From Henriciella sp. (GTDB lineage: Bacteria; Pseudomonadota; Alphaproteobacteria; Caulobacterales; Hyphomonadaceae): a stretch of 64,000 nucleotides of DNA. The notes beneath the pieces are model-generated. The model saw only the letters and a list, made by a program, of their open reading frames with translations. It ran no database searches and was not told the DNA's origin. The stretch lies in NCBI GenBank assembly GCA_030066975.1, contig JASJAO010000002.1, positions 372,001 to 436,000 of the forward strand, read 5' to 3'. Made by a program: the position numbers and the translations under genes. Positions 46,169 through 49,893 of the stretch are shown one piece after another; position 1 is the stretch's first letter; each line of letters opens with the position of its first letter.

Positions 46169-46258
46169 AGCTTTAACCCCGATAAGAGACTTGCGCGCCT
46201 TGTTAGACTGTGTTTGCGCATTTGGCGAGAGGCGTTTGCCAGATAGGAGGCGATGGGC

Positions 46259-46717
46259 ATGCCAAATCTGCGAACACAGCTATTCTATACTTGGTTCCGC
46301 TGGTCCCGGCCGATGACCCTTGGGGTCCGCGCGGCGGTCGAAAACAGCGACGGCGCCATCCTCATCGTCCGCCATACCTACACGCCCGGCTGGTATCTGC
46401 CCGGCGGCGGCGTCGAACATGGCGAACCCGTGCTCGATGCGCTCGCCCGTGAGCTGCGCGAAGAAGGCGGCGTTGACCTCATCGGCGCCCCTGCCCTCTA
46501 CGGGGTCTATTCCAATCACCGCATCATGCGCAATGACCATGTCATCTTCTATCGCGTTAAAGCCGATCAGTGGCAGCTCTGCACCCCAGACCATGGCGGC
46601 GAAATCGCGGAGGTCGCCTGGGTCCAGCCGGGCGACGTGCCGGACGACATCACACCCGGCAATGGAAGGCGGTTTGCGGAGCTGTTTGAAGGCGCGCCGG
46701 TCAGCCGATACTGGTGA
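46259..46717 (+). CDS. NUDIX hydrolase
   Basis: A 152-residue protein (start at the second ATG, 46259, which has AGGAGG 8 nt upstream; the first, 46253, is only 2 nt from it). The Nudix box is GGGVEHGEPVLDALARELRE followed by EGG, with the key Glu residues intact. The box is followed by YGVYSNHRIMRNDHVIFYRV. It hydrolyses a nucleoside-diphosphate-linked compound; substrate unknown. Its 3' end overlaps a small ORF on the other strand. Confidence 0.9.
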   Translation: MPNLRTQLFYTWFRWSRPMTLGVRAAVENSDGAILIVRHTYTPGWYLPGGGVEHGEPVLDALARELREEGGVDLIGAPALYGVYSNHRIMRNDHVIFYRVKADQWQLCTPDHGGEIAEVAWVQPGDVPDDITPGNGRRFAELFEGAPVSRYW

Positions 46718-46823
46718 GCCAGCGCACAATCAGAACCACGCCGACCGGACCGATCACAAAGATCAGAGCCGATAGAAGAAGCGCCTTCGGGTTAGGGCGC
46801 GAGACGGTATCCTGGCGTTTCAT
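46701..46823 (-). CDS. Putative 40-residue membrane microprotein
   Basis: ATG at 46823 and TGA at 46701 define a peptide with a polar start (MKRQDTVSRPNPKA) and one hydrophobic helix (LLLSALIFVIGPVGVVLIV), ending RWLTSIG. Positive charges on both sides of the helix are typical of single-pass microproteins. The 3' end overlaps the NUDIX gene by 17 nt, convergent. The Shine-Dalgarno is only AGAAG. No homologue is recognised. Confidence 0.45.
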   Translation of the reverse strand: MKRQDTVSRPNPKALLLSALIFVIGPVGVVLIVRWLTSIG

Positions 46824-46903
46824 ACCGCTTCTATCGCAGCGCAATAAGGCACGAATGCGGACCCAAGATTGACCGAATTTGGGCGTTCCGATTCAAACCT
46901 TCT

Positions 46904-47048
46904 TAAGAGACGACGCGTACTTTGGCCGTCCCTGGCAGAGCCCCCCTCTCTGTTTCAGGTCCCACCGGTCCGACCGCCGCCTCTTCCCCTTAGGCGCGCG
47001 ACGACCAGAGTAGAGCGGCCGCGCTTAGCCCCCTAAGCGCGGCCTTTT
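46904..47048 (+). ncRNA. Candidate structured small RNA with intrinsic terminator
   Basis: A 145-nt stretch with no ORF folds on paper into a closed multibranch structure. The closing stem pairs TACTTTGGCCGTC (46918-46930) with GACGACCAGAGTA (47000-47012), with one C-A mismatch and one wobble. Inside are three hairpins: CCTG/CAGG extended by CAGAG/CTCTG with a CCCCCCT loop, CGGT/ACCG, and GCCT/AGGC with a CTTCCCCTT loop. A 12-bp perfect terminator stem follows directly. The C-rich loops could pair with Shine-Dalgarno sequences, as in several alphaproteobacterial sRNAs. A -35-like TTGACC is at 46869-46874; the -10 is poor. The family is not recognised (not 6S, 4.5S or tmRNA by eye). Confidence 0.5.
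47017..47048 (+). terminator. Strong intrinsic terminator closing the candidate sRNA
   Basis: A perfect 12-bp stem, GGCCGCGCTTAG (47017-47028) and CTAAGCGCGGCC (47033-47044), encloses a CCCC loop and is followed by TTTT on the plus strand only. There is no protein gene ending just upstream on this strand (the NUDIX stop is 300 nt away with an opposing ORF between). This is the main reason to look for a non-coding transcript here. Confidence 0.85.
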
Positions 47049-47793
47049 ACTGTTTTGAACGCGGTGAAAAAGCCGCCCGCGCATAGAGCCAGCCCGTATA
47101 GGCCGAGAGCAGCGCGGCGAGCCAGATTAAGGCGTAGCCCAGTAAACTTAGACCACTGATCAGGAAACCCAGACCACTATTGAGTGCCAGAACCGGGCGC
47201 GGATCAAACAGTATCATACCGTGCACCAAACCAGGTACACCGCCAAGAGCCAACCCCAACAGAACACCCCCAATACCAACCATCTCCACTGCGGTCTTCC
47301 ACTTCGCCAGAACAGTCACCGGCAAAGCACGATTACTCATCCACCGCAGCAAAGTGACAGCGGCATCCCGAATGACAATCAAAAGGACTGGGATGAGAAA
47401 CGGGAACGACCAGTTTGTCATGTCTGCAAGCGCGAGCAGGCAGATAGCCACGAGCAGCTTGTCTGCAATGGGATCCAGGACCGACCCGAACCGGCTTATC
47501 GCATTCAAACGGCGCGCGGCAAGACCGTCAAAGAAATCCGTCAGCGCAGCGAGTACAAACCACACAAACGGTTGAACGATGTGAAGTGAATAAACTCGGA
47601 GTGCTTCACGTCTTGCTTGGTGCGCTTCCAAGCGTTCCTCAGACGTAGATGTTGACACGTCCAGTTGCCAAGCTGTGAACTCATCCACGAACTCAACTGC
47701 TGCAGGCTCCAACTCCAAAATCGACCACCCCACCACGAAGGCGAGCAGACATCGGAGGATCGTCAATGCGTTGGGAAGCCATTTCCAGGACAT
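47047..47793 (-). CDS. CDP-alcohol phosphatidyltransferase (PgsA-like)
   Basis: About 248 residues from the ATG at 47793 (an upstream ATG at 47829 adds 12 residues). It is a polytopic membrane protein with the family motif reading DFFDGLAARRLNAISRFGSV followed by LDPIADK, which supplies all metal-binding Asp residues. It would condense CDP-diacylglycerol with an alcohol, most likely glycerol-3-phosphate. Unlike typical PgsA, about 60 mostly polar residues (VEFVDEFTAWQLDVSTSTSE and on) separate helix 1 from the next helix, so the exact alcohol is uncertain. Its start is just downstream of the pckA terminator. Confidence 0.85.
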   Translation of the reverse strand: MSWKWLPNALTILRCLLAFVVGWSILELEPAAVEFVDEFTAWQLDVSTSTSEERLEAHQARREALRVYSLHIVQPFVWFVLAALTDFFDGLAARRLNAISRFGSVLDPIADKLLVAICLLALADMTNWSFPFLIPVLLIVIRDAAVTLLRWMSNRALPVTVLAKWKTAVEMVGIGGVLLGLALGGVPGLVHGMILFDPRPVLALNSGLGFLISGLSLLGYALIWLAALLSAYTGWLYARAAFSPRSKQ

Positions 47794-47834
47794 GGGATCA
47801 GCCTTCGCAGCTATTCCCGCTTCGAACAAGCAAC

Positions 47835-49491: not shown

Positions 49492-49893
49492 GGATATTCC
49501 CCTAATTAATGCAGATTTCAAACTCGGATGAGAGCCTGAGTTTCTTCTGCTGTCCCAATCAATGACGTGGATAAGACCCTGACATTTTCAGCTTGGCCAG
49601 CCGCAAAAACAGAATTTGCCGAGGTAAACGCTGTCAATTTTAAAATTGGCACAAATGGGCGCACCCAGCATAGTTAACGGTCTGAGGCCTGCCTAAAACG
49701 CAGACTCGGGCCACTCTTTAAGCGAGCGTTTAACGCAAGTGATTCTACTTTCTAGGGTACGGGACTCGGGTCGCGAAACACGATTTGCTCAGAAAACCGC
49801 GCTAAATTGACCCTAACGTCAACGGAAGCCTTGCGGAGTCGCGTTCAGGGCGCTAGCTGCAACGCAAACAATCGCTCAAACTGGGAGTCGCCG
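49492..49893. promoter_or_regulatory. Divergent pckA/etfB control region with AT-rich palindrome
   Basis: A 402-bp gap between divergent pckA and etfB, the longest without a gene in the window. It must contain both promoters. The clearest feature is a perfect 14-bp palindrome CAATTTTAAAATTG (49635-49648), extended imperfectly to 20 bp (TGT and GGCA flanks), an AT island in GC-rich DNA and a likely operator. TTGACC at 49807-49812 lacks a matching -10. The leader of etfB has GGGAG 6 nt before its ATG. No ORF of note. Confidence 0.45.

Follow-up and report, generated by a model that had tools for sequence, protein, structure and literature searches.

A conserved candidate small RNA with C-rich loops and an upstream CtrA-like box at the pgsA 3' flank of Hyphomonadaceae

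Introduction

In Caulobacter crescentus, the small RNA CcnA (CCNA_R0094) pairs by a CCCC loop with GGGG in the leaders of ctrA and gcrA, and its gene carries a CtrA box 23 bp from the start (-23) (PMC8959179). GsrN of the Caulobacteraceae uses an exposed 5' C-rich loop to bind G-rich mRNA leaders such as katG, is controlled by SigT/EcfG and has homologs usually located near the general stress response locus (PMC5869019). In Sinorhizobium, the trans-acting sRNAs EcpR1 and GspR are reported to repress cell-cycle mRNAs via conserved loops, the targets being gcrA and dnaA for EcpR1 and ctrA for GspR (PMC4414408, PMC5928217).

Here we analyse a 64,000-nucleotide stretch of a Henriciella genome (the window), in which an sRNA gene is predicted beside a pgsA-like gene. 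Like CcnA, the window RNA would be non-coding and structured, would start closely behind a CtrA box to which CtrA would bind, and would have a CCCC loop matching GGGG at ribosome-binding sites. The ccnA gene, by contrast, is 182 nt long and sits in the replication origin, and a single CCCC loop (Loop A) has been described for its RNA (PMC8959179); the window RNA is about 120 nt long, lies next to pgsA and belongs to a family with putative targets and usually two or three C-rich loops, counting the terminator loop. Its neighbours (NUDIX, micro-ORF, pgsA, pckA) mark a locus other than that of ccnA, and no homology between the two RNAs is evident. Exposed C-rich loops are shared with GsrN as well, whereas the SigT/EcfG-type promoter and the stress-locus setting are not. 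With EcpR1 and GspR the likeness lies in the predicted trans-acting mode; EcpR1 differs in its loop, UCCGCCGCAUCU rather than C runs, and in its position downstream of divK-pleD (PMC4414408), and GspR in targeting ctrA at -59 to -68 and in having no known promoter signature (PMC5928217). The family is new, while its kind, the regulated trans-acting C-loop sRNA, is already known.

Results

The locus and the structure of the predicted RNA

The features of the locus are as follows.

46253-46717, plus strand: NUDIX hydrolase gene, upstream neighbour
46701-46823, minus strand: micro-protein ORF of 40 aa, hydrophobic, divergent from the sRNA, a conserved neighbour
46892-46906, plus strand: CtrA-like box TTCA-N7-TTAA, which departs from TTAA-N7-TTAA at one position; 34 relatives have the perfect box at this offset
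46927-47048, plus strand: predicted sRNA transcript, whose start was placed to within about 10 nt from the box and the beginning of hairpin 1
46931-46959, plus strand: hairpin 1, loop CCCCCCU (46941-46947), from the minimum free energy (MFE) fold; syntenic hairpin in relatives
46976-46999, plus strand: hairpin 2, loop CUUCCCCUU (46983-46991), from the MFE fold; syntenic hairpin in relatives
47017-47048, plus strand: intrinsic terminator with a perfect 12-bp stem (47017-47044), loop CCCC and TTTT at 47045-47048
47047-47829, minus strand: pgsA-like CDP-alcohol phosphatidyltransferase gene, convergent, the syntenic anchor

The original prediction was of a structured sRNA, so far unannotated, that has C-rich loops and ends in a terminator of its own, and synteny, covariation and loop conservation now support it strongly. 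The perfect 12-bp terminator is present as described and is the sole terminator-like site on the plus strand between 46000 and 48000. All three proposed hairpins are found and conserved in relatives, and the two C-rich loops, CCCCCCU and CUUCCCCUU, are both unpaired in the MFE fold of the window RNA. The region 46904-47048 folds at -63.5 kcal/mol, against -47.0 (sd 3.6) for dinucleotide shuffles (z = -4.56), and none of 200 shuffles was as stable. The claim that the ends pair over 12 bp has to be corrected: the pairing amounts to 10 pairs with a bulge, formed by 46915-46925 with the segment just before the terminator. Conservation of this closing stem had been proposed as a test, and the stem occurs in the MFE fold of the window RNA only, being absent from the MFE folds of the relatives. 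It probably lies partly upstream of the transcript, because hairpin 1 begins 24 nt after the end of the CtrA-like box (46906), a spacing shared with relatives.

Several features of the neighbouring genes can be recorded here. Beyond the pgsA-like gene lies pckA. In the pgsA-like protein the first membrane segment is followed by an inserted stretch of about 50 aa, which gives it a resemblance to the g5 proteins and is absent from the sRNA-bearing relatives of the genus; in family f4, three genomes have a tandem pair of pgsA-like genes (L126, L127 and L128 with L150, L151 and L152). Relatives have the micro-ORF in a conserved form of 32-33 aa such as MKRIWQRYSLHLLLLAAIVFMTMPALFAFAGA, which seems to be leaderless and gives no Pfam match. 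Some version of it is also present in genus g5 and in G013, a genome lacking the sRNA.

Conservation in relatives

The Rfam 15 covariance models (6S RNA and others) gave no match in the window at the gathering threshold, nor, relaxed to E = 1, any match over the RNA in eight loci. BLASTN of the window RNA against 60 relatives was likewise without a match, and we therefore examined the syntenic place, locating pgsA and taking its 3' flank. In 10 genomes of the same genus this flank holds an RNA of the same plan, two hairpins and then a strong terminator, with a UCCCCUUU-type loop in hairpin 1 and a CCUCCCCC-type loop in hairpin 2 in most of them. The terminator stem core CGGCCGCGCT/AGCGCGG is common to the window and these relatives, and the gene order NUDIX, micro-ORF, box, RNA, pgsA is conserved. 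A covariance model (R1) built from seven of the 10 genus relatives found the three copies left out as a test with E values of 4e-15 to 4e-13. The window copy scored 20.7 bits against the relatives' model (E = 7e-4 in the loci searched), mainly through the terminator, and was missed in a whole-genome search with R1, the match not being significant genome-wide. Weak matches of R1 in other genera were mostly ordinary GC-rich terminators; only L052 (g5) proved to be a true syntenic RNA. The window copy is thus a diverged member of the family, whose assignment as an ortholog draws on gene order, spacing and the terminator core, not on overall sequence.

The paired positions of the RNA covary. In the 10-sequence genus alignment, which was fitted to the structure so that the pairing test is somewhat favoured, 95.7% of the cells pair, compared with 88.7% after shuffling and 33-43% when the partner was slid. 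Changes on both sides affect 12 pairs (4.7 when shuffled); hairpin 1 accounts for six of these and hairpin 2 for four. When the RNAs of two other genera were aligned and folded separately, two hairpins plus terminator came out again, and 11 and 8 pairs had changed on both sides.

To describe the spread of the family we read the pgsA flank in 105 Hyphomonadaceae genomes and recognised the RNA by eye in about 60, with the RNAs of A3, A5 and A6 (33 sequences) measured by alignment and the remaining carriers judged visually. Carriers comprise genus clade A, most of g5, g4, and one or two genomes each of g6, g7, g8 and g22. Among the family genomes read, the RNA is absent from the pgsA flank in g3, in genus clade B, where NUDIX abuts pgsA, and in G013. 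No such RNA was present at the pgsA flank in 24 genomes from other families of the order (f2-f5). We found no paper on sRNAs and CtrA in Hyphomonas, and the conserved sRNA family is apparently undescribed.

The CtrA-like box and the presumed promoter

CtrA binds the motif TTAA-N7-TTAA. All 10 genus relatives have a perfect copy ahead of the RNA, as do 24 genomes from other genera, with differing spacers, and the distance from the box to hairpin 1 is 24 nt in the window and about 22-25 nt in relatives. Perfect sites number 7-18 in each of seven whole genomes, where a control pattern is commoner (10-31); calculated from these counts, the chance of a perfect box in a given 50 bp is about 2 in 10,000 per genome, related genomes not being independent. 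The original prediction had compared the RNA with stress-induced alphaproteobacterial sRNAs. This parallel did not hold: no EcfG/SigT site (GGAAC-N17-CGTT, up to one mismatch) lies near 46850-46930, and in relatives the CtrA box occupies the promoter position.

A rather unlikely alternative is that the sRNA is real and conserved, and pairs with mRNAs through the same C loops, but that its main regulator in the window genome is not CtrA, the box having decayed and expression being constitutive or driven by another factor. The mismatch in the window box fits this alternative, as does the g5 subclade L073-L080, which has kept the RNA with a degenerate box, and no consensus sigma-70 promoter for the sRNA was found either. 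Yet the window retains the half-sites, the spacing and the 24-nt offset, and in g4 the second half of the box is usually TTCA (TTAA-N7-TTCA), and a -10 element resembling TATTAG lies at a suitable distance. One-mismatch CtrA-like sites number eight in the window, against 4.3 expected.

Other observations concern CtrA and its sites. Two further one-mismatch boxes lie at 49506-49520 and 49718-49732, at the pckA start and in the intergenic region upstream of pckA. In genus relatives (L007-L018) a conserved block GCGGCACAATTTAGGCGGGAA directly adjoins the CtrA box on its upstream side and is not kept in the window genome. A second protein resembling CtrA is encoded in G013 (L294) and shares 79% identity with the window genome's CtrA.

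C-rich loops and possible targets

The C-rich loops are conserved beyond what composition gives. Unpaired runs of four or more C average 1.8 (g1), 1.5 (g5) and 1.9 (g4) per RNA, compared with 0.35, 0.39 and 0.77 in dinucleotide shuffles, a 2.5- to 5-fold excess of open C-runs, and no unpaired G4 run occurs in the RNAs of these three genera. Each g1 and g4 copy tested retains at least one open loop of four or more C; in one g5 subclade hairpin 1 is G-rich, not C-rich. That the loops pair with Shine-Dalgarno sequences, as originally proposed, is a plausible mechanism and the one we favour. Their character is anti-Shine-Dalgarno, and CcnA offers the nearest model of how they would work.

Whether the RNA acts as an equivalent of CcnA, with the ctrA and gcrA mRNAs as key targets that close a feedback loop on CtrA, can be judged from the leaders of these genes. 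The mechanism has a published precedent in CcnA (PMC8959179), and the ctrA Shine-Dalgarno GGGGAG is found in all ten sRNA-positive genus genomes read, the window genome having GATTCGGGGAGTTGATAATG. Similarly, gcrA has GGGG at about -12 in eight sampled RNA-positive relatives and in none of three negatives. However, GGGG also precedes ctrA in G013, G007 and G023, genus members where the search did not find the RNA (in G023 pgsA itself was not found), other RNA-bearing genera have merely GGG at ctrA, and in the window genome the GGGG of gcrA lies only at -27. Neither ctrA nor gcrA stands out from the window genes in pairing energy; GGGG lies near the start in seven of 58 window genes (12%), and ctrA surpasses 51 of the 58 at best. 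Genome-wide counts of GGGGAG-N4-8-ATG are alike in genomes with the RNA (83, 84, 61) and without it (81). We therefore regard an outright CcnA equivalent as unlikely and favour pairing with G-rich ribosome-binding sites in general. ctrA was rejected as a proven target, the correlation between GGGG and the RNA in the first sample having broken once more RNA-less relatives were read.

A probable separate gene on the plus strand

The region has the features of an independent intergenic sRNA gene, namely its own terminator, a promoter-proximal element next to a presumed promoter, a conserved structure and no ORF. It was argued from the start that no plus-strand protein gene explains the terminator, and this stands: 46904-47048 has no plus-strand ORF of at least 60 aa, NUDIX ends at 46717 and the pgsA-like gene is convergent. 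It is improbable that the region is no sRNA gene but either the end of the NUDIX mRNA, with its 3' UTR and terminator, or a pgsA terminator region working in both directions. The NUDIX gene does lie upstream on the same strand, and the terminator directly adjoins the pgsA stop codon, which its T-tract overlaps. Against this, the intervening gap of 200 nt holds the divergent micro-ORF and the CtrA box, hairpins 1 and 2 show covariation and retain C-rich loops, for which a terminator has no need, and the RNA is kept at the same place in g5 and g4. Still less credible is a functional minus-strand RNA, a pgsA 3' UTR whose G-rich loops could bind a CsrA-like protein as a sponge: the minus-strand fold is equal or better in 12 of 33 copies, the window included, but the plus-strand fold is more stable in the other 21, the CtrA box stands on the hairpin 1 side, and the plus strand is favoured because the T-tract lies on it in the genus and G-U pairs outnumber unpaired cells in the pair counts.

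Discussion

We consider it probable that the locus is a stand-alone gene for a CtrA-activated, trans-acting sRNA of about 120 nt that pairs with G-rich Shine-Dalgarno regions. The gene would occupy approximately plus-strand positions 46927-47048 and belong to a family that is conserved across Hyphomonadaceae at the 3' flank of pgsA. Phosphorylated CtrA at the upstream box, which has one mismatch in the window, would turn on the sRNA during the part of the cell cycle in which CtrA is active. The transcript is predicted to fold into two hairpins and the terminator hairpin, a conserved arrangement that leaves the C-runs in open loops, and these may base-pair with several mRNAs at G-rich Shine-Dalgarno regions, in most cases keeping ribosomes from binding. 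With ribosome binding blocked under CtrA control, the sRNA would be a post-transcriptional arm of the CtrA programme. The conserved structure and loops, the preference for the plus strand and the box in relatives are results of the computation, whereas transcription, CtrA control, the targets and the sign of regulation are inferred. Several observations count against this reading: the window copy has diverged, its box has a mismatch and one-mismatch sites exceed expectation in the window, several relatives are without the RNA (genus clade B, g3 and G013), and ctrA and gcrA do not stand out as partners in the window genome, GGGG at ctrA being found in RNA-less relatives too.

More tentatively, CtrA activation may extend to the family as a whole, which would then be a cell-cycle-timed anti-Shine-Dalgarno regulator, usually with two or three C-rich loops and of separate origin from CcnA. 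CtrA-driven C-loop sRNAs would then recur as a layer of cell-cycle control in alphaproteobacteria and would be no peculiarity of Caulobacter; we consider this a possibility somewhat short of even.

The locus provides an example of sRNA discovery by synteny where sequence search fails. It also offers, in relatives of Caulobacter, a conserved and concrete sRNA family that Rfam does not cover, together with a hypothesis of CtrA activation and of C-rich loops blocking G-rich ribosome-binding sites. Whether the use of C-loop sRNAs by CtrA, described once so far for ccnA, is general can now be tested.
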